Positions 2,131-25,125 of a stretch of 35,996 nt of DNA are shown here, in pieces. Origin of the DNA: Bacteroidota bacterium (GTDB lineage: Bacteria > Bacteroidota > Bacteroidia > Palsa-965); contig JABDCB010000027.1 in assembly GCA_013288325.1 (NCBI GenBank), positions 546 to 36,541 on the forward strand. The letters are read 5' to 3'. Position numbers and translations under genes: made by a program. Position 1 is the stretch's first letter. Every line of letters begins with the position of its first letter. The notes under the pieces were generated by a model. That model saw only the letters and a list, made by a program, of their open reading frames with translations, did not search any database and was not told the DNA's origin.

Positions 2131-3366
2131 TTAAACGGCCTCCTTTAGATCATTTTGTTTAGGTTTATGCCAGATTGATTTCATTTCAGCACCTTTAACT
2201 TTATCCGTAATCTTTATATATTTTTTAAATGTCTTATAGTCCTTATGACCAGTGATACTCATTACAATCTCCGGCCTCATTCTTTTTTCCAGAGATAGCG
2301 TCACAAAAGTTCTCCGGGCCACATGTGTAGAAAGGAATTTATATTTAGGTTTTGTTGAGGAAAGCTCTTCGGCCCCCCGGAATTTGGTTAAGGTTACAGA
2401 ATCATCAATAGAGCAATATTCTCCAAGCTTCTTCAAGTAGTCGTTCGATTTCTGATTGGAAATAACAGGGAAGGAATAGTCATATTTCTCGAGAATCTCT
2501 AAAGCGTAATCATTAAGAGGAATTCTGATTGATTCCGTTGTCTTTTCTGACACCAGATGAATTTCATCCTTTTTAATCGTGCTTTTAGAAACTCTGGCAA
2601 TATCTGAAAACCGGAGGCCAGTAAAGCAGCCGAAACAAAAAGCATCTCTGACCCTTTCCAAATAAGGAACTTCCTTCAAATCGAAGTCCAGTAAATGAAG
2701 CAGTTCCTTTTCGGTGAGATAGATTATATCAGCGTCCCGCTCCTTTACCTTAAACTTCAGAAAAGCAAGGTTGGTGTTATACCCTCGTTCGGTTGCCCAG
2801 TTTAGGAAAGTCTTTAAAGCCTTAATGTACTTAGAGAATGAGTTATCGACGATTTTCAAGTCCTGAAGGCAGTATGATTGAAAGTATTCCATGAATTTGG
2901 AATCAATCTTCTCGAAAACGACCGTGTATTTTCTTTTTTTCTGAAAGCTTTTCAGGTGGTTAATGGTCGTCTGATACTTTTGTAAGGTGGGATTGGATTT
3001 GGTGGTCTTTTGCAGTTCCTTGAATTCATCAAAAAAGCCGAAGAAATCTTTCGGGGCATTGCTTCCGGGGTTTATCTGCCTGTCCAGCCTTTCTTTGATG
3101 TATTCGTTTGTAAGAACATGATTATTCGTTACTCCATTCCGGTATATCCTCCTTACTTCTTCCTCTATCCGGTCAAGGAGATTATTAAGCTCAAGTGCCC
3201 CGGTCATTGATTTCTTAGCCCTTTGAGCCTCTGAATTCCAGTCCTTAGGGGTTATGCTTTCCCCGGTGGAATATTTCAACCTAGTCCCGTTATAGCTAAA
3301 GAACAGGTAAATCAGGCTTTCTCCTTTCGATTTACTGTCCTTAAGATAGAAGTTCGATTTTGCCAT
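2131..3366 (-). CDS. Tyrosine recombinase (site-specific integrase)
   Basis: A 411-residue integrase of the Bacteroidota type, normal in length. An N-terminal arm-binding-like region (1-100) is followed by a SAM-like core-binding domain (about 105-205) and the catalytic domain. The catalytic set is visible: R252 in TGLRFSDI, K275 in SEKT, H348 and R351 in STHVARRTF, H374 in TGHKDYKT, and the nucleophile Y383 in KKYIKI. It is therefore expected to be active in strand exchange. It lies 20 bp downstream of a lipoprotein gene and about 1.6 kb from a tRNA-tail-like sequence (4990-5006) that could be its attachment site. The start is the ATG at 3364-3366. Confidence 0.95.
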   Translation of the reverse strand: MAKSNFYLKDSKSKGESLIYLFFSYNGTRLKYSTGESITPKDWNSEAQRAKKSMTGALELNNLLDRIEEEVRRIYRNGVTNNHVLTNEYIKERLDRQINPGSNAPKDFFGFFDEFKELQKTTKSNPTLQKYQTTINHLKSFQKKRKYTVVFEKIDSKFMEYFQSYCLQDLKIVDNSFSKYIKALKTFLNWATERGYNTNLAFLKFKVKERDADIIYLTEKELLHLLDFDLKEVPYLERVRDAFCFGCFTGLRFSDIARVSKSTIKKDEIHLVSEKTTESIRIPLNDYALEILEKYDYSFPVISNQKSNDYLKKLGEYCSIDDSVTLTKFRGAEELSSTKPKYKFLSTHVARRTFVTLSLEKRMRPEIVMSITGHKDYKTFKKYIKITDKVKGAEMKSIWHKPKQNDLKEAV

Positions 3367-5223: not shown

Positions 5224-6120
5224 TCAGGCCAAGCTAAAAACAAAAACCCGGCCTTTACAAGCTGTGCATTGGTGAACGAGCATCTCTATGGTCCCCTTAA
5301 AGTTTCTTAATTCATGATCAATCCAATCCCTTTTTTCGGGAGTTGTCCCGATTTCTGTTGATGGCAGGATTAAATCCATCAATCTATGTAATGTAGATAA
5401 AGTTGTAGGAACATCCCAATAATTGTGTTGATGGTTTTCAAGTTCGTTGACTCTTGGCCTTGCACCATCTTCATAAAGGCTAATCTCCTTACTGGGGTTG
5501 CAATTTTTGTATACGTTGATTTCTGTACGGATGTCACTGATATTTTGAGGTAAAATAATCTGTAGTTTAAAATCAATTCCTTGTTCGACTCTCTTTTTAG
5601 CGAGAGGCTGAACGAAACTTTCGAAATACCCCAGAGCGAGGGCGGCAGATGGGATTGGCTTCAAATTATAGCTAGATCGGGTCGAGTTAAAGGCCTCAAC
5701 TATCTTATCAATTGCCCCTTCTAGGCTCCCCACCACGCTCCTTTCAAAATACGACACCGTCACGCCGTTGTAATCAGTAGGCAATTTACTACCCTTCTCC
5801 ACCAGTAAGAATGCTCTTGTCAACCCCAAACTACCCAAGAACATTCCCATTTCAAACATAACATTATCTCTAGGCACAGGGCTTTGCTTTCCTCTTGATT
5901 TCACAATGTCATCTTTGGTGGCTACTAAAATACCATAATCGTATTTTCTAGAGGCTTTTACAAGAGAGTCGAGAGCGTTTTTATTTAATGAGAAAACACC
6001 ACTTTCATTCCACACCTCCGAATCGATCCAAGACCCACATTCAGTTTCGATGTTTTGCTTTAATTGGGTGGCAATAGTAAGTCCTTCAGAGGAAGAGCCG
6101 ATAAATAGTTTTCTTTTCAT
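5224..6120 (-). CDS. cap12: TIR-STING effector of a CBASS system
   Basis: A 298-residue protein of two domains. Residues 1-145 are a TIR-like NADase domain of the predicted nucleotide-binding type: KRKLFIGSSSEG at the start, then PRDNVMFEMGMFLG with the likely catalytic glutamate E90. Residues about 155-298 match bacterial STING: SAALALGYFESFV, an LQIILP strand, WDVPTTLSTLHRLMDLILP, and a final helix WIDHELRNFKGTIEMLV. F166, R221/R223, D236 and T239/T240 are candidate cyclic-dinucleotide contacts. In studied relatives c-di-GMP makes TIR-STING form filaments that destroy NAD+ and kill the infected cell. Its ATG overlaps the E2-like stop codon by four bases (ATGA), so the two are translationally coupled. 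No clear terminator follows the gene. Confidence 0.92.
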   Translation of the reverse strand: MKRKLFIGSSSEGLTIATQLKQNIETECGSWIDSEVWNESGVFSLNKNALDSLVKASRKYDYGILVATKDDIVKSRGKQSPVPRDNVMFEMGMFLGSLGLTRAFLLVEKGSKLPTDYNGVTVSYFERSVVGSLEGAIDKIVEAFNSTRSSYNLKPIPSAALALGYFESFVQPLAKKRVEQGIDFKLQIILPQNISDIRTEINVYKNCNPSKEISLYEDGARPRVNELENHQHNYWDVPTTLSTLHRLMDLILPSTEIGTTPEKRDWIDHELRNFKGTIEMLVHQCTACKGRVFVFSLA

Positions 6121-6842
6121 TTTCCTATTTGTTTAAAATCGTTAAACACTTGTTCTTCCCCAAGAAACTTCAATGTGTGAAATATTTTTTCATGACAATT
6201 TTTATATTTTGTCCCAGATCCACAGAAACATGGGTCATTCCTCCCGCATGTAGTCTTCAAATTCTTGAAAGCATAACAAAAGTATTGCGCCCATAAATCT
6301 TTGTCCCCGGTTTTCAATAGTTCTTCATAAAACTGGCTATAACCAGCCTTAGGATTATGCGCATATTCTCCGTTTTTGTACTTCCCGGTGAGTTTACGGT
6401 GAATGAAATTTGCAAAATATGGAATGGCGTGCTTCTCAATAAATAAAAGAATAGAAATGCCATTCTTGCATGCCAATACCTCTGCTGGCGTAACAGTTAT
6501 ACAACAACTCCAATCTCTCGGATATTTGTGCCAGGCAGGGTCGTTTGGTATTCTCTCGCCAATCTCAAACAATATTGGAAATCTATATGGAAATCCGTTT
6601 GATCGATGAATCTCTATCAGAAAATTGTCTACTATTTCACCATTGTCATTAGGTATATCTATAACCCCGGTTAAAAACGTGTCACCTAGATCGTCTTCAG
6701 TAACTTTAAGCAGGGAATACTTTGCGATTACATCGCCTAACTGGCTTTGAAAGAGTGAACGATTATCTTGTCTCACAGTATGGTTTTGATATTCCAATGG
6801 TCTTCGCGAGCAGAGCTGCGGAGGTCGTTTTCTCCTCCTCAT
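6117..6842 (-). CDS. E2-like ubiquitin-conjugating-fold protein with SEC-C zinc tail (short type II CBASS)
   Basis: A 241-residue protein. I start it at the ATG at 6840-6842 because AGAAGGA lies four bases upstream. A longer reading exists but would overlap the CD-NTase gene by 182 bp; this start overlaps it by 80 bp. Residues about 35-150 resemble prokaryotic E2 domains: FLIEIHRSNGFPYRFP, an FEIGERIPNDPAWHKYP strand and WSCC with the probable catalytic cysteine C113 or C114. Residues 199-217 (CGRNDPCFCGSG ... CH) are a SEC-C zinc motif, as at the SecA C-terminus. Short type II CBASS systems carry a lone E2 that is thought to conjugate and prime the CD-NTase. The position between CD-NTase and effector supports that role. 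E2 function is inferred; the SEC-C motif is certain. Confidence 0.85.
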   Translation of the reverse strand: MRRRKRPPQLCSRRPLEYQNHTVRQDNRSLFQSQLGDVIAKYSLLKVTEDDLGDTFLTGVIDIPNDNGEIVDNFLIEIHRSNGFPYRFPILFEIGERIPNDPAWHKYPRDWSCCITVTPAEVLACKNGISILLFIEKHAIPYFANFIHRKLTGKYKNGEYAHNPKAGYSQFYEELLKTGDKDLWAQYFCYAFKNLKTTCGRNDPCFCGSGTKYKNCHEKIFHTLKFLGEEQVFNDFKQIGK

Positions 6843-7716
6843 CTTTTCCTTCTGGAAAATATGTTTTTCCAAAATGTTTTTGCCATAGTTTACTTGCGTC
6901 AAGTTGATTTTTTTTCTCGTCAACTGCTTGCTTTGAATCAGCAATAAAAGAAGCTAGATTATCAAGAAAATTAGTTTTTTGATTTTCATCAAAATCAGAG
7001 AACAAATCATCCTTTGGCGTTGTTGGCATTACGCATTTGAACCCCTTCTTCAATTCATTTGATATAGCGATCAGGGTATATTTGAGGGCCACATCGTCCC
7101 GGAGATTTTTCTGAAGGTGCCTCATGGAAAATATTGTCATGGACAATCCACTCGGCATTTTTTCCTTTTTAAAATCACACCATGCTTTCAAATAGCGTGA
7201 AATTCGTATCAATTGCCCCTCAGAATCTTTCACCCGGTTAAATTCCTCAATAAATTCTTTGGGGTCATCTAACCGAAAGCCAACGTCTTTAACAGCCAGT
7301 TTAGGATGTAGGTCCTTGTCCTTGTCAAAAATGAATACCGGCAGGTCAATATTATATCCAGCTTTGTAATCAACCATAATACATTTCTTTCTATGGGATG
7401 GTGTTGCATCCGTAACACCGTCAACTGCCTCTTTTACCCAACTTTGAAGGGTTGTAGCTGCTACATCGTCAGGATTTTCCTTAAAATATACGCCATCGTC
7501 AAGGTCACAAGTGTCCTCTTTTGTCCTGATCATGTTTTTAGTTTTACTTGATCCTTGGATATAAAATGTTGGCTTGTATTTCGGATGGTTCTCCTTGAAG
7601 AACTTCCTTATCTTTTCCCTGAGGCTGTCTTTAGACCCTTTCATTAGGTCTTTTTTAGCTTTTGGAATTTGAAGCTCCTCGTTGAACTTCTGGAATAAAT
7701 TGTCACAGTTTGCCAT
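6763..7716 (-). CDS. cdnE: CD-NTase cyclic-nucleotide synthase (CBASS sensor)
   Basis: A 317-residue enzyme of usual CD-NTase length. The nucleotidyltransferase signature is complete: GSS at 55-57 in FYIQGSSKTKN, D71 and D73 in CDLDDGVYF, and the third metal ligand D124 in YNIDLPVF. A helical C-terminal half with SRYLKAWCDFKK follows. Family members join NTPs into cyclic di- or trinucleotides when a phage is sensed. STING-linked enzymes belong to clade E and make c-di-GMP, so cdnE and that product are inferred from the neighbouring TIR-STING. The clade needs a tree, since the LDDGVY form also occurs in DncV-like enzymes. The C-terminus ends KPYCETR, without the terminal Gly or Ala seen in well-studied conjugated CD-NTases. 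Start ATG at 7714-7716. Confidence 0.93.
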   Translation of the reverse strand: MANCDNLFQKFNEELQIPKAKKDLMKGSKDSLREKIRKFFKENHPKYKPTFYIQGSSKTKNMIRTKEDTCDLDDGVYFKENPDDVAATTLQSWVKEAVDGVTDATPSHRKKCIMVDYKAGYNIDLPVFIFDKDKDLHPKLAVKDVGFRLDDPKEFIEEFNRVKDSEGQLIRISRYLKAWCDFKKEKMPSGLSMTIFSMRHLQKNLRDDVALKYTLIAISNELKKGFKCVMPTTPKDDLFSDFDENQKTNFLDNLASFIADSKQAVDEKKNQLDASKLWQKHFGKTYFPEGKDEEEKTTSAALLAKTIGISKPYCETR

Positions 7717-9401: not shown

Positions 9402-10403
9402 TCACGCGTTTTTCAATTCAAATCCGTACAAGTAACTAATATCTTTGAAGCCATCAACATTTTCTTTCCAACCATTCTCCTCATGGCTTATATCAATTAT
9501 TTGACTAGTATTTGTTGAAACAAATTTTTCAGCAACAGCCTCAAGCACTTCAATTTCGTGAGTTGTAAAATACTCCGGCTTAAATGGCCTGTCATCTCGC
9601 GGGATAAAATGCTCCCCCATAGCTCCATTAGGGAATTCGGTATAGAAAATGTCGATAAAATCTTTCTTCGCTGCATATTCGAAAAGTGCCCCGAAATTTC
9701 TAGGTACAGGGCCCATCTGAATAGCCATATACCGGGCTCCACTGATCGAATAGCAGGTCTTTTTGAAGTTTAAAAAATCTGCATAGAACAATAATTTATT
9801 CAACTTTGTTTTAAATGGTTTCAATTTCCATGTAAAAAACACAACCATCTCAATGAACTTATCCAATTGTGGCACTTTAAATCCAGTGTAAATATCCGGA
9901 AGCTTTTCACCCATCATATACTCTTCTAAGTTAAAACCGAAGAACGGATCCTTAGATTCGTCGAGAGATTCTATTTTATTAAGCCTCTTCTCTAATTCGG
10001 CACCTTCATACACCCCGCTTAATTTAAGCAGTTTGGCAAACTCTTTAGGGTCTTGAGCCAGTTGAATCAATCTTCCATTTGACTCACTCGGGATCTCCCC
10101 ATTTTCATAATTTCTGTAAACATTAACCCCGAACCCTAACACCTCAGCCATTTTTATGGCTGGCAAGCCATACTTCTCTCGCATTGCTACCACTTCATCT
10201 GGGAAAGGCAGACGATGTTTTGATCGGTATTGATTGTATAACTGATTCAGATTTACCTCGTCAAGCTCAGTGGTTGTAAATTGCTCACCACTATCTTCAC
10301 ATAAATAAAAATGATACAAGACTTCGAATTCCGTTTTTCGGAATGTCATTGTCCGGCGCTCCTTCGTGAGGATCATTGCCTTACCTGTAATTGGACTTTT
10401 CAT
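9402..10403 (-). CDS. MqsA-like antitoxin fused to a Panacea (SocA-like) domain
   Basis: A 333-residue protein of three parts. Residues 1-60 look like an MqsA/YgiT zinc-ribbon region (MKSPITGKAMILTKERRTM ... YHFYLCEDSGEQF), but the usual paired zinc cysteines are missing. Residues about 65-115 are an XRE helix-turn-helix (LPFPDEVVAMREKYGLPAIKMAEVLG ... YRNYENGEIP). Residues about 180-320 are a Panacea/DUF4065 domain (LNKLLFYADFLNFKKTCYSI ... MGPVPRNFGALFEYAA), which in PanAT systems neutralises diverse toxins. Its ATG overlaps the toxin stop by four bases, so the pair is coupled, toxin first. It probably represses its own operon through its HTH, with the palindrome at 10803-10816 as a likely site. 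Confidence 0.88.
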   Translation of the reverse strand: MKSPITGKAMILTKERRTMTFRKTEFEVLYHFYLCEDSGEQFTTTELDEVNLNQLYNQYRSKHRLPFPDEVVAMREKYGLPAIKMAEVLGFGVNVYRNYENGEIPSESNGRLIQLAQDPKEFAKLLKLSGVYEGAELEKRLNKIESLDESKDPFFGFNLEEYMMGEKLPDIYTGFKVPQLDKFIEMVVFFTWKLKPFKTKLNKLLFYADFLNFKKTCYSISGARYMAIQMGPVPRNFGALFEYAAKKDFIDIFYTEFPNGAMGEHFIPRDDRPFKPEYFTTHEIEVLEAVAEKFVSTNTSQIIDISHEENGWKENVDGFKDISYLYGFELKNA

Positions 10404-11091: not shown

Positions 11092-11466
11092 ATGATGGAA
11101 ACGCTAGGCCAGACCCTCAAAGCCACTAGGGGTAAAGTGTCCCTAACGCTTAGAGAAGTTGAGGACTCAACAGGAATTTCAAACGCCTATTTGAGTCAAC
11201 TTGAAAACGATAAAATAAAAAAGCCATCAGCTAATGTGCTTTATAAATTGGCTGATATCTATAAAATTAGCTTGGATGTGCTTTTAGTCGCTGCTGGAAT
11301 AATTACCAAAAGTGATTCTGAGAAAACACATAATGATGTTAGTGAATTTGAACGTGAAATAGCTTTTTATAAGGATAAATTTTCTCCTGAGGAAGAGCAA
11401 CAAATAATCTCTTTTATTAAATTTTTACGTTCACAGAACAAGAATGGATCAGCAGCTGCAATCTAA
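11092..11466 (+). CDS. XRE-family transcriptional regulator
   Basis: A 124-residue protein. A clear XRE helix-turn-helix occupies residues 2-60: LGQTLKATRGKVSLTLREVE, then TGISNAYLSQLENDKIKKPS and LADIYKISLDVLL. The C-terminal half (FEREIAFYKDKFSPEEEQQI ...) is charged and probably dimerises. Translation starts at the ATG at 11092 (an adjacent ATG at 11095 is possible) because the promoter lies inside any longer reading. The gene overlaps the metallopeptidase gene by 23 bp. Such XRE/ImmA-IrrE pairs usually work as repressor and repressor-cleaving protease that switch stress or mobile-element genes. Confidence 0.92.
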   Translation: MMETLGQTLKATRGKVSLTLREVEDSTGISNAYLSQLENDKIKKPSANVLYKLADIYKISLDVLLVAAGIITKSDSEKTHNDVSEFEREIAFYKDKFSPEEEQQIISFIKFLRSQNKNGSAAAI

Positions 11467-12340
11467 GAAAGACATTGAAAAGATTTCTATTGATATATTA
11501 AAAGATTCAAAATCCTACGGTGTTTTCCCGACACCAATTGATAAAATCATCACCTACTCAGAATTAATTGTTGCTGGCGGTATTGACCTTAAAAGCCTCC
11601 AGGAAAAACATAAAAGCTTCTTTTTTTCAGATGCCTTTAAATCCGGATTGAGTAAGATCAGAGGGTTCTTAGATCGCAGAGAAAAAATCATTTACGTAGA
11701 CACAGAGCAAAATATTAATAGGCAAGGTTTCGTGAAGCTACACGAAACAGGTCATAACGTTTTACCATGGCAAAAAAACGTTCTTGAGTTTTTGGATGAT
11801 GATAGTACACTAGATCCAAAAACAAAAGAGGAGTTCGAAGCCGAAGCAAATTATTTTGCCTCAGGCACTTTATTTCAGCATGATTTATTTTTAGATGAGA
11901 TAAAGAAATATGAACTTGGGATTCCTGCGACATTTCAATTAGCGAAATATTTTGGAGCCTCCACTCATGCAACTCTGCGCAGGTATGTTGAACAATCTCA
12001 TAAAAGATGTGCTCTTCTAGTTTTGGAAAAAATATCTCCCAAAGGGCAACCACCCGCTGCGTGCTTTCGGAATTCTTTTCATTCCTCGAAATTTGTTAAG
12101 GAGTTTGGCGAGATAACATGGCCCGATCAATTTGGTTTTACGTGGTCCTTCATTCAGGACTACTATTTCAACAAAAGAGTAAAGATGGATGGGGTTGTTT
12201 CGTTGGAGACTAGCAATGGTCGAAAAGAATTTCATTATCACTTCTTCAATAATACTTTCAATGCTTTCGTGTTGTTCTTTCCAAAAGGGGAAAATAAAAA
12301 GACACGAACCAAGATCATTCTTAAGACATCTCTTGAGTAA
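11444..12340 (+). CDS. ImmA/IrrE-family metallopeptidase
   Basis: A 298-residue protein starting inside the XRE gene, so the two are co-translated. The zinc motif HExxH is H100-ETG-H104 in KLHETGHNVLPW. A third ligand is expected in the FEAEANYFAS segment at 131-140 (E132 or E134). Family members cleave a partner XRE repressor after a signal, as ImmA/ImmR do in ICEBs1. The C-terminal 150 residues (FRNSFHSSKFVKEFGEITWP ...) are longer than in ImmA and may sense a signal. The likely target is the upstream XRE protein. Whether it controls the island genes is unknown. Confidence 0.92.
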   Translation: MDQQLQSKKDIEKISIDILKDSKSYGVFPTPIDKIITYSELIVAGGIDLKSLQEKHKSFFFSDAFKSGLSKIRGFLDRREKIIYVDTEQNINRQGFVKLHETGHNVLPWQKNVLEFLDDDSTLDPKTKEEFEAEANYFASGTLFQHDLFLDEIKKYELGIPATFQLAKYFGASTHATLRRYVEQSHKRCALLVLEKISPKGQPPAACFRNSFHSSKFVKEFGEITWPDQFGFTWSFIQDYYFNKRVKMDGVVSLETSNGRKEFHYHFFNNTFNAFVLFFPKGENKKTRTKIILKTSLE

Positions 12341-21818: not shown

Positions 21819-22598
21819 ATGATCATCTTATCTGTTTTAGGAGGTATTTTACTAATTCTTGTGCTGCTCGTCCTTTCCGGAATTTGTGTTGCACAGGAGT
21901 ATCAGCGTTCTATCATTTTCAAACTGGGTCGCTTTGACTCCATAAAAGGTCCGGGTATATATTGGCTGATTCCATTTATTGAAAAACAACAACGGGTTGA
22001 TATCCGGACAAAAACCGTTGATCTGGAACAACAAGAAACCATTACAAAGGATAGTGTAACCATTAAGGTGAATGCTGTTCTTTGGTTCAAGATCGTAAAT
22101 CCTGAATCTGCAATTATAAAGGTTGCTGATTTCAACAAAGCGGTATATCAGTTTTCTGTTACGGCATTAAGAAATATTATCGGACAACATACCCTTGATG
22201 AGGTTTTAAGAGAAAGAGAACAGATTAACAGTACGCTTCAGAAAATTGTTGATGCTGCCACAGAACCCTGGGGAATAAAAATTGAAATGGTTGAAATGAA
22301 AGATGTGGAAATACCCGAAGCGATGCAACGTGCTATGGCCCGGGAAGCAGAAGCCATTCGCGAGAAAAGAGCACGTATTGTAAAAGCCGAAGCGGAACTG
22401 GAAGCATCTATTAAACTGACACAAGGCGCCAAAGAAATGGAAGGCAGTCCGATTGCTCTGGAACTAAGACGCATGCAAATGTTGTCTGAAATCGGAATTG
22501 ATAATAATACAACCACCGTGATTCTGATGCCTACAGAATTTACAAATGCGGCCAAAAGTTTTACGGATTTGGTTGCCAGTAAAAAGAATGCCAGTTAA
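21819..22598 (+). CDS. Slipin (SPFH/stomatin-family membrane protein)
   Basis: A 259-residue protein of usual slipin length. One N-terminal membrane segment (residues 2-25) is followed by the SPFH domain (EYQRSIIFKLGRFDSIKGPG; VDLEQQETITKDSVTIKVNA; LRNIIGQHTLDEVLRERE). A charged coiled-coil part comes next (AMAREAEAIREKRARIVKAEAE). Slipins form membrane-bound oligomers that organise the inner membrane. Their usual partner, a NfeD protease, is not next to it here. Confidence 0.93.
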   Translation: MIILSVLGGILLILVLLVLSGICVAQEYQRSIIFKLGRFDSIKGPGIYWLIPFIEKQQRVDIRTKTVDLEQQETITKDSVTIKVNAVLWFKIVNPESAIIKVADFNKAVYQFSVTALRNIIGQHTLDEVLREREQINSTLQKIVDAATEPWGIKIEMVEMKDVEIPEAMQRAMAREAEAIREKRARIVKAEAELEASIKLTQGAKEMEGSPIALELRRMQMLSEIGIDNNTTTVILMPTEFTNAAKSFTDLVASKKNAS

Positions 22599-22645
22599 CA
22601 TTACTCAACGGTAGCTGTTCCGAAATTCTAATAAAACAACTCAGT

Positions 22646-23059
22646 ATGAATACAAATCAAGATCCTATTTTCCCCAAAGGGAATAAAACCTCAGTGGATT
22701 ATTTTACCGGAAATGCCTGGTTAAATGTGCTGGTTCCAAAAGATGAGACAGGCAGTTATTCCATAGGTGATGTTGCTTTTGAGCCAGGTTGCAGAACCAC
22801 CTGGCACACCCACCCTGCAGGACAAATATTACTCATTACCCATGGCCAGGGATTTTATCAGGAACGGGGCAAACCGGCAAGATCGATTGCAAAAGGTGAT
22901 GTGGTAGTTATTCCATCTCTTGTGGAACACTGGCATGGGGCTACCAAGGATAGTAGTTTTACGCATATTGCCGTTACCAATATTGTTGAAAATGTGGCGG
23001 TTAACTGGCTGACGCCGGTTACTGAAGAGGAATATGCGAGTTGTCACGTGACAGCTTAG
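22646..23059 (+). CDS. Cupin-domain protein
   Basis: A 137-residue single-domain cupin. The first motif is TTWHTHPAGQILLI with the metal-binding histidines, and the second is GDVVVIPSLVEHWHGA. The layout resembles small cupins found with carboxymuconolactone decarboxylase-like proteins. The metal and substrate are unknown. It starts 47 bp after the slipin stop and may be co-transcribed with it. Confidence 0.9.
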   Translation: MNTNQDPIFPKGNKTSVDYFTGNAWLNVLVPKDETGSYSIGDVAFEPGCRTTWHTHPAGQILLITHGQGFYQERGKPARSIAKGDVVVIPSLVEHWHGATKDSSFTHIAVTNIVENVAVNWLTPVTEEEYASCHVTA

Positions 23060-23122
23060 TTGGTTATAATGATTGTTATGATTATCATAATAAGTCGCTG
23101 AAGTCTAAAGTGAAAAACACAG

Positions 23123-23521
23123 CCTGCTACTAAAGAAAAACACTCTACTACTAAAGAAAAACACCCTACTACTAAAGAAATACACTCTACTACTAAAGAA
23201 AAACACCCTACTGCTAAAGAAAAACACCCTACTACTAAAGAAACACACCCTTCTACTAAAGAAATAGACTCTACTACTAAAGAAACACACCCTTCTACTA
23301 AAGAAAAATACTCTACTACTAAAGAAATACACCCTACTACTAAAGAAATAGACTCTACTGCTAAAGAAATACACCCTACTACTAAAGAAATACACCCTAC
23401 TGCTAAAGAAAAATACTCTACTACTAAAGAAATACACCCTACTACTAAAGAAATACACCCTACTGCTAAAGAAAAATACGCTACTACTAAAGGAATACAC
23501 CCTACTACTAAAGGAATAGAC
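23123..23521. repeat. 19 tandem copies of a 21-bp repeat
   Basis: The unit is close to CCTACTACTAAAGAAATACA plus C. The TAAAG core recurs from 23131 to 23509 at exactly 21-bp steps, so 19 units with no insertion or deletion. Variation is limited to a few positions: CC/CT at the start, ACT/GCT, AAA/ATA/ACA after GAA, CAC/TAC/GAC at the end. The plus strand carries G almost only in TAAAG. Because 21 is divisible by three, frames stay open. In one plus frame the unit spells PTTKEIH-like heptads, but a TGA precedes the array and there is no start codon. Confidence 0.95.
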
Positions 23522-23580
23522 GCTATTGCTGAATTTTGTTATGAAACTGTTTCAAAAAAGGAATGTTTATTCACACAAAC

Positions 23581-23602
23581 GGCCCCGATATGTATCGGAG
23601 CC
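23581..23602 (-). terminator. Hairpin after the FGE gene
   Basis: GGC and CCGATA pair with TATCGG and GCC across one C/A mismatch, 24 bp beyond the stop codon of the minus-strand FGE gene. It lacks a good U-run, so termination is only likely. Confidence 0.4.
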
Positions 23603-23625
23603 GCCTGTCGGAACATCACATTTGT

Positions 23626-25125
23626 CTATTTAGACACAATCATAACCCGGAAACCGATATAAGGAGAAGCACTTGTTATTCCTGCATATTCATCTTCGCC
23701 GTTCAACTGTACATGTTTCTCATCACTGTTCCAGCTTCCTCCCTTTGTTGCCGGTTTTAACAATTTCGGATTCTGTGCATCTGTAACATAAACCATTTCA
23801 GCCACATTTCCGCTCATACAATATAATCCAAAGTCATTCGGGTTATACGAACTAATCGGAGCTATAAATGTTCCTTCACCCATCATGAGTCCTGCTGTGG
23901 TATACGCTTTCGGAAACGGTTTGGTTCCGCAAAAGCTTGCCGTGTCAACGGTAACAGGATTCTTTTTAAAACACAGGTTGGCCAGGAAGCATCCTCTCAG
24001 ATTTGTTGCTTTCAAATTCTGCGTAGCATAATAAGGTTTCGTGCTCAGATATAAACTCCATGGATAGTTGGCATCCTTTAAACCTCCGGAGCCTGCATAG
24101 GTCCACTCGGCATCACCAGGCAATGCAATCCGGATCAATGGCTTCGACTTTTCCGTGAGTCGTTTGTTGGCTTCCTCTGTAAGCCACAGACAATACATTT
24201 CGGCTCCTTCGCGACTGATATTGACTACCGGATAACCATCATAAACTACGGATGAGAAATAATTTTCGGCCATGGTTTGCGCATATCCATTGATGGGTGC
24301 GGCAAGCCACTTTTGCTGATCGGGCTTGGCTTTCAGAAACTCGGTCTTACGGCCCTGAATCAGCAGGTCGAAGAGAAAGGTTCGGTAATCAAGGTTACAC
24401 ACTTCCGTTGTTTGCATATAAAATTTGCTGATGTTCCGGATCGTTCCCTGATATGAAAACGAAGCTTGCGGAATCGGAAGGTATTTGCTTTTACTGTACC
24501 TGACCACCTGATCAATCATCCGGTTTTTTTGTTTGGTATTTGCCTTCATTTCCTCTTCCGTCAGTTTTGGGAATGCATATTCACTGTCGGGGTTTGCTTT
24601 CAGGGTTAAATAGCTCATACTGCTTACAGGCTGCTCTGTATACACCGGTAAATTATCCACCGCCACACAATCTTCTTTGGGAATGTTTTTACTCACAACC
24701 AGCAGCGATTCGTTTCTTACCGGTGCGGGTATGGACTTTATCTGATCCGCTCTTTCGTTTGCAGAACCGGTATTGTTCTGTATAGTCCCGGGAGGAGGGT
24801 TATTTACAGTCAATGGATTAACAGTTTGCTTTATAACCGGTTTCGCGATATCCGATTTGTCCGTATAAATCAGAGCAGGTATCAGAATAGCCGCCGAAAT
24901 GCATACGATCAGCAGGATGGCATTCAGGTTGAGTTTAAACATTTTCTTTTCGTTTAGCTTGTTTGTTTGCGGGTGATTGAATGTACCCTCACCCATCACA
25001 TGATCAGACATGGCACTCAGGATAGTTGCGTTTTTAGGATCATTGAAGTCCAGCTCCTGAAAGGCCTTATTCAGGAGACCGTCAAATTCCTTATCCGCAT
25101 TGGTATTTGAATCTTTATCAGACAT
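23626..25125 (-). CDS. Transmembrane protein with extracytoplasmic FGE-sulfatase fold, linked to an ECF sigma factor
   Basis: A 499-residue protein. Residues 1-65 are a charged cytoplasmic segment (DGLLNKAFQELDFNDPKNA ...), residues 68-87 a membrane anchor, then a Pro/Asn-rich linker. From about residue 205 there is a formylglycine-generating-enzyme fold: MQTTEVCNLDYRTFLFDL, YPVVNISREGAEMYCLWL, MSGNVAEMVYV, GGSWNS, and GFRVMI at the end. The paired catalytic cysteines expected before GFR are missing, as in GldJ and GldK, so it probably is not an oxidase. Its start overlaps the sigma-factor gene by eight bases. By position it could be an unusual anti-sigma or signal-sensing partner. Confidence 0.85.
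   Translation of the reverse strand: MSDKDSNTNADKEFDGLLNKAFQELDFNDPKNATILSAMSDHVMGEGTFNHPQTNKLNEKKMFKLNLNAILLIVCISAAILIPALIYTDKSDIAKPVIKQTVNPLTVNNPPPGTIQNNTGSANERADQIKSIPAPVRNESLLVVSKNIPKEDCVAVDNLPVYTEQPVSSMSYLTLKANPDSEYAFPKLTEEEMKANTKQKNRMIDQVVRYSKSKYLPIPQASFSYQGTIRNISKFYMQTTEVCNLDYRTFLFDLLIQGRKTEFLKAKPDQQKWLAAPINGYAQTMAENYFSSVVYDGYPVVNISREGAEMYCLWLTEEANKRLTEKSKPLIRIALPGDAEWTYAGSGGLKDANYPWSLYLSTKPYYATQNLKATNLRGCFLANLCFKKNPVTVDTASFCGTKPFPKAYTTAGLMMGEGTFIAPISSYNPNDFGLYCMSGNVAEMVYVTDAQNPKLLKPATKGGSWNSDEKHVQLNGEDEYAGITSASPYIGFRVMIVSK

Follow-up and report, generated by a model that had tools for sequence, protein, structure and literature searches.

The genus studied here carries a class of non-coding, intergenic tandem arrays, nearly all of them locked to a period of 21 bp or a multiple of it, that turn over by whole units. 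The sequence of the unit is unlike between families and largely unlike between species. We tentatively read these arrays as a genus-wide satellite system whose unit is held at two turns of the DNA helix, probably by binding of protein to one helical face, a reading that we favor without being confident of it. The window (the whole stretch of DNA that was analyzed, 35,996 nucleotides) contains one such array between two convergent genes:

22646..23059, + strand: Cupin_2 domain protein, left neighbor, 137 aa, ending 55 bp before the array
23106..23110, + strand: 20th TAAAG core, at the left edge, where the register breaks
23115..23533, no strand: 21-bp array of 19-20 units, consensus AAATACACCCTACTACTAAAG; within the unit, conserved part CTAAAGAAA and variable part ATACACCC
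23626..25125, - strand: FGE-sulfatase (SUMF1-like) domain protein, right neighbor, 499 aa

The original prediction of a phased intergenic array of 19 x 21 bp without indels was confirmed. TRF called the array at 23115-23525 with a period of 21, 19.6 copies and 0% indels, and the 19 TAAAG cores from 23131 to 23509 are spaced by exactly 21 bp throughout. The extra core lies 25 bp upstream of the first in-register core and marks the one register break. Substitutions amount to 31 per 399 bases (19 units), and 13 of the 19 units are distinct. The pattern CTAAAG-N15-CTAAAG-N15-CTAAAG matched 17 times in the window, compared with no match in 100 dinucleotide shuffles. With 19.6 copies of a 21-bp unit, the array counts as a prokaryotic satellite (at least four repeats of 10-200 nt, at least 60% of identical length). 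A CRISPR array was rejected: the core is only 6 bp long, and the rest of the unit recurs instead of forming unique spacers. The plus strand of the array is C-rich and G-poor. A strong strand bias had been noticed; the further remark that G occurs almost only in TAAAG was too strong, since these cores hold 19 of the 30 Gs of positions 23123-23521. The bias may need no special cause, because the repetition of one 21-base unit by itself yields a skew. By eye, neither terminal inverted repeats nor a target duplication was seen in the flanks of the array.

Several other genes of the window were identified. A tyrosine integrase (2131-3366) lies in the same stretch as a CBASS-like defense operon, which is supported by Pfam PF10137 and PF20300 and by PADLOC Cyclase, E2 and Effector:

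5224-7716, - strand: CBASS-like operon with a DncV-like nucleotidyltransferase, an E2-like protein with a SEC-C motif, and a TIR + prokaryotic STING effector
9402-10403, - strand: SocA-Panacea antitoxin-type protein, with weaker MqsA similarity
11444-12340, + strand: IrrE/M78-type metallopeptidase, with PADLOC capP similarity

The source genome (G000; 2.81 Mb, 104 contigs, 59.6% complete) belongs to the Bacteroidota by its relatives, and the nearest titled relatives of a neighboring protein come from uncultured Flavobacteriales or Bacteroidota genomes. All genomes of the genus are fragmentary assemblies (104-270 contigs), with a completeness of only about 60% for G000 and the congener G002. 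A search of the source genome for the unit, proposed in the original prediction, found related arrays on contigs C45, C21, C12, C43 and C5; with C27 these carry the CTAAAG arrays of G000, of which there are at least five besides that of the window. The phased CTAAAG triple gave 109 matches in G000 and 0 for the reversed control. These arrays form a dispersed non-coding family in one genome in the satellite sense given above, and G000 additionally contains 21-bp arrays built of other units.

A CTAAAG pattern of variable spacing had matches in 10 of the 39 genomes searched; outside G000 and G002, those among the matches listed appear scattered, coding or of other spacing. In G002 the arrays are of exactly 21 bp, with a different unit. 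A G002 protein 72% identical to the window cupin over 129 aa had no array in the 1.4 kb examined, and at the orthologous sites of five genes (six sites) none was adjoined by a matching non-coding array. One seeming array at an orthologous site, L220, turned out to encode a coiled-coil repeat. Such comparison of sites between species is weak because the sites lie in neighborhoods without a conserved gene order. It had been proposed that unphased or absent repeats in close relatives would point to a transient expansion. At the level of sequence, the window family was indeed absent at the one site checked, and the 21-bp-phased CTAAAG core was absent from two of the three congeners; at the level of the class, however, 21-bp arrays were present in all four species sampled.

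The phages and plasmids searched gave no match to the array. In viral contigs (IMG/VR), the phased CTAAAG pattern occurred in at least 120 stretches, and among the matches listed 27 contain a clear 21-bp array, 22 of them inside frames of at least 150 codons. An origin of the array in a phage, plasmid or virus was rejected, given the lack of matches in the phages and plasmids searched. Two IMG/VR contigs carry short, near-perfect 21-bp arrays with CCTAAAG that no long frame spans (L398:3038-3130 and L399:10699-10801, the latter reaching the contig end).

The prevalence of the 21-bp period was measured in stretches picked independently of whether they held arrays, for the most part the initial 20 kb of contigs taken in succession, together with further parts of six contigs. 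Self-similarity was scored at periods 9-130, where 6 of the 122 periods are multiples of 21. In 1.84 Mb from four species, 53 of the 71 tandem arrays had solely multiples of 21 as periods:

G000, 0.40 Mb: 4 of 8 arrays
G001, 0.53 Mb: 10 of 17 arrays
G002, 0.56 Mb: 34 of 36 arrays
G003, 0.35 Mb: 5 of 10 arrays

The remaining 18 comprise 15 arrays that lie in open frames (112-1374 codons) and have a period divisible by three, two 14-bp repeats, and L215, whose 42-bp period is broken by a slip of 1 bp. Coding arrays among the 53 number four, namely L091 (in a 581-codon frame), L220, L239 and L289, the last two with 3-bp shares of 0.35 and 0.59 and repetitive translations. This leaves 49 non-coding arrays, or 50 once L215 is added. 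The latter are distributed as 4, 8, 33 and 5 in G000, G001, G002 and G003, equal to 10, 15, 59 and 14 per Mb (targeted loci L050-L061 left out), and the non-coding arrays make up about 0.4-2.5% of the sampled DNA. Several arrays lie at contig ends, and the real lengths and numbers may exceed those counted. The arrays span about 0.1-0.7 kb and are intergenic; by crude ORF-based gene calls, the gaps holding them are convergent in 12 cases, divergent in 10 and co-directional in 21, with 8 at a contig edge.

Neither the three arrays found in two sister genera (0.205 Mb) nor the two found in 80 loci of other genomes (0.63 Mb; almost all titled as Bacteroidota) were of the 21-bp kind. At the lowest density of the genus, 10 per Mb, this outgroup of 0.83 Mb should hold about 8 such arrays and the sister genera alone only 2; the chance that the sister-genus sample holds none is about 13% at that density. 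Base periods of 20 or 22 bp did not occur in the census. At the targeted locus L052, two short arrays of a 20-bp unit CCTAAAGGGCGGGGCAACTA adjoin CCCGCCCTAAAGGGCGGG palindromes (L052:2926-2999 and L052:5683-5755); these are a different repeat type, with CTAAAG in common.

A catalog of 51 arrays was sorted into 33 families at a threshold of 16-of-21, or 31 without two doubtful single arrays, L078 (also 14-bp periodic) and L239 (coding). The tests described below used 42 of these arrays, after exclusion of nine that measure about 150 bp or less. Family representatives showed no excess of likeness over shuffled units (10.02 versus 9.92 matches on average). In a profile test, 3 of 26 families from other species fitted a degenerate G000 element (P ≤ 0.005; about 0.1 expected), and the mean z of those 26 was 0.40 ± 0.29. 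By this test some families do have a common ancestry, and most do not; families within one genome are not independent of each other. On contig C43 of G000, two arrays of different families lie 40 bp apart (L054:5530-5904 and 5945-6444).

Many arrays are dimeric or of higher order, with periods of 42, 63, 84 or 126 bp. In 6 of the 42 arrays, adjacent 21-mers are 30-54% alike and 42-mers 67-92%. Conservation is concentrated in one block per unit (first-harmonic share, 0.178 ± 0.026; flat expectation, 0.1), with no excess at 10.5 bp (second harmonic, 0.105). The 10.5-bp component of purine content was modestly raised (0.145 ± 0.021 versus 0.100). A 7-bp signal within units was absent (lag 7, 0.236 versus 0.256), and sub-repeats of 10-11 bp were unsupported (lag 10, 0.262 versus 0.257).

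Paralogous copies show how the arrays change. L228 and L238 of G002 have identical flanks (130 bp + 134 bp) and identical outer units and contain 18 and 21 units, respectively, a difference of 63 bp with the interior units rearranged. In this one clear pair, the copy number has changed by whole units while the flanks are unchanged. Some arrays are dispersed as part of longer repeats. The flanks of L228, L238 and L229 are common to all three and by eye have no clear inverted termini, and a degenerate array is present in three copies of one G000 element (L050, L051 and L053). L050 and L051 are identical over 388 bp and thereafter differ in 21-bp steps. Over the 31 units of this element, shift 0 was best for 28-29 of 31 at an all-pair identity of 0.40-0.42, and no lasting register shift was seen. 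BLAST of L051 against L053 placed seven small gaps (1, 1, 11, 1, 4, 3 and 3), and within-family array alignments contained many 1-bp gaps in some pairs. These gaps probably reflect misalignment among repeats, because each copy holds its own register. In a MITE family of G002, 17 gap openings accompany 244 mismatches in 10 pairs of 8 copies, and loss of register would therefore be expected in unconstrained DNA.

This MITE-like family (e.g., L255, L264 and L274) consists of elements of about 280-420 bp with the terminal repeat TAGGGTTCACTCAA, whose ends matched 72 times in G002 with at most one mismatch and were found in none of G000, G001 and G003. One copy, by eye, seems inserted in a TAACTA site beside the 21-bp array L238.

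The reading of the unit as two helical turns, made in the original prediction, remains the best fit because 21 bp is the one property common to arrays of unlike sequence. Slippage or unequal exchange may lengthen, shorten and homogenize the arrays, and older degenerate DNA that is already phased at 21 bp may give rise by amplification to new homogeneous arrays. Two turns of 10.5 bp would place the core of each unit on the same face of the helix for a DNA-binding protein, the step of which we are least sure. Indels would then be selected against and most bases would be free to drift, which is also less certain than the turnover. The conservation of one block per unit resembles an array of sites made of core and spacer. 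The register kept by the degenerate 31-unit element, the whole-unit turnover and the modest purine component at 10.5 bp are also in favor of this explanation. Several observations run counter to this explanation. The families have no core motif in common, and one sequence-specific binder therefore cannot serve all of them. Besides the missing conservation excess at 10.5 bp, A/T power at that period is below expectation (0.064 versus 0.103), and HU/IHF counts are ordinary (2-4 both in the genus and in six relatives). The 21-bp core is not always visible, as the 6 arrays that agree better at 42 bp demonstrate, and the few array sites that were compared proved not to be shared between species. 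Hairpin potential is strong in a few arrays and nil in others.

Close behind is the explanation that the arrays are neutral or selfish satellite DNA derived from one ancestral 21-bp satellite and without cellular function, a serious possibility that we consider somewhat less probable. The unit length would then simply be inherited, as slippage and unequal exchange can change an array by whole units only. The whole-unit copy changes agree with this, as do the array positions that were not conserved in the cases checked and the three other-species families that fit the degenerate G000 profile. Outside arrays, only 16 two-copy non-coding duplications were found in the four species, 3 of them of 21 bp; births of new arrays therefore look rare, which is also in favor of this explanation. 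A decaying array should lose its register, however, and no lasting shift was seen in the 31-unit element, unlike the gap-prone MITE family. The absence of base periods of 20 or 22 bp from the census also argues against neutrality, the 20-bp palindromic repeat of L052 being of another kind.

A bolder reading is that up to a few percent of the genome, as non-coding DNA fixed at exactly two turns of the helix, constitutes a sequence-agnostic periodic code, in which helical spacing rather than sequence would be read by a dedicated DNA-binding or chromosome-organizing system while the sequence is renewed by turnover. We consider this unlikely.

It is improbable that the arrays are made by an enzyme that generates mutations in steps of 21 bp (nuclease, recombinase or polymerase, duplicating two turns of the helix), in which case the period would be a property of the enzyme and not a result of selection on its product. 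Many unlike families with a single unit length would be accounted for, but fresh duplications of 21 bp did not stand out clearly (3 of 16, a small sample). RVT_1 was unmatched in the four genus genomes (G000 and G002 being about 60% complete), and Y1_Tnp was unmatched in G000 and G001, both of which bear arrays. Enzymes of these two kinds were rejected as array makers, as their occurrence does not track the arrays.

Intrinsic curvature, in which 21-bp phasing adds in-plane bends, is very improbable. Bends stay in phase in any 21-bp repeat, but the bend predicted from wedge angles was not above that of column-permuted arrays, with mean z values of 0.14 and 0.05 (n = 42). At 10.5 bp there was no excess of AA/TT or A/T; AA/TT was raised at 5.25 bp (0.19 versus 0.115). 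The earlier suggestion that the array may bend DNA is thus unsupported as far as intrinsic bending is concerned. The window unit is not palindromic (P = 0.42), and a REP or other palindromic repeat was rejected; P was <0.05 in 7 of the 42 arrays.

About as improbable as curvature is an element acting at the level of RNA, such as a Rho loading site, a terminator or a structured RNA. The C-rich, G-poor plus strand of the window array would suit it, and RNA folding z was mildly negative overall (-0.9 and -1.0) and reached -4 to -5 in a few arrays. However, C>G skew is independent of transcription (10 of 19 co-directional arrays), the arrays occupy convergent, divergent and co-directional gaps alike, and positions 22500-24200 of the window had no Rfam match. 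Skew averages 0.26 in the arrays, of either sign, versus 0.085 in random 350-bp pieces. Curvature, sub-repeats of 10-11 bp, palindromes, RNA structure and Rho loading are all unsupported as a general explanation.

The least probable explanation is that the arrays are protein-coding heptad repeats or relics of them, and the original suggestion of a repeat-protein relic did not hold. Open frames are plentiful: the window array is stop-free in three frames, one on the forward strand (NCT-AAA-GNN) and two on the reverse strand, and most of it is spanned by a mechanically called reverse-strand ORF of 131 codons (23105-23500) that starts with GTG. At least one frame is open in 39 of the 42 arrays (null, 36.1 ± 2.0), and the mean number of open frames is 2.43 versus 1.95 in column-permuted arrays, about 3 SD with families that are not independent. 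The 3-bp composition power, however, was 0.089 ± 0.007 in the 42 arrays, compared with 0.46 in the 22 viral in-frame arrays, which served as the coding control, and 0.34 in 102 ORF pieces. The 3-bp share was at most 0.175 in the 49 non-coding census arrays, except for L237, where it was raised to 0.258. The codon-phase share of variation (0.461) was the same as the null (0.458 ± 0.011), and of the 60 mismatches between the paralogs L051 and L053, 17 are third-position changes in the forward frame that is open. Six array translations matched no Pfam family above its cut-off, and the ORF list holds no forward-strand ORF of at least 80 codons over the window array. TGA terminates 51 of 186 long open runs, which points to a standard genetic code.

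Plasmid iterons are direct repeats about two helical turns apart that present the same face to a protein and consist of a core and a spacer, and they form a single array beside a rep gene at an origin. The window array is iteron-like in its direct repeats phased near 21-22 bp, the spacing that defines iterons. Unlike iterons, the arrays are many and have different cores, and the neighbors in the window are the cupin and FGE-sulfatase genes, with no rep gene. Ordinary bacterial VNTRs have many unit lengths in one genome; as in VNTRs and minisatellites, copy number here shifts by whole units, but the non-coding arrays have one base length in common. In the library model of eukaryotic satellites, unit length is kept while the sequence turns over and higher-order multiples arise. 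The arrays share the conserved length, the sequence turnover and the multiples, but differ in their two-turn unit, their small size and their intergenic location in a bacterial host.

Among prokaryotes, Subirana and Messeguer (2019; PMC6749651) describe non-coding satellite families in Leptospira interrogans and Methanocella conradii with units of more than 30 nt (37, 46 and 69). Those families, like the present ones, are many-unit non-coding tandem arrays scattered in one genome; here the unit is 21 bp or a multiple, the families are numerous and for the most part dissimilar, and the class extends across a genus. In the scheme of that study, a 21-bp unit falls in the short class and a 42-bp unit in the long class. 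The density of 59 per Mb in G002 is above that of every bacterium in its Table 1 (at most 23 per Mb), under detection rules that differ. Methanosarcina is listed there with up to 89 satellites per Mb, mostly short microsatellite-like repeats, and the dispersed short-repeat families known from that work are likewise mostly microsatellite-like (PMC6749651). A heptamer-derived 14-bp dispersed family in Chloroflexus aurantiacus (PMC6749651) is similar in its unit of less than 30 nt and its many sites per genome. That family derives from one heptamer, whereas the families here share the 21-bp length only and have no 7-bp signal. A study of lake plankton mentions intergenic tandem repeats in Planctomycetota (PMC9426551). 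No report of 21-bp-locked arrays was found in the literature searched, in agreement with the original remark that the array follows no recognized repeat class.

Unlike sequences that share a length of two DNA turns amount to a natural experiment, in which selection on helical spacing could be separated from selection on sequence. The arrays of this genus thereby make it testable whether bacteria maintain satellite DNA for chromosome structure, as eukaryotes do.
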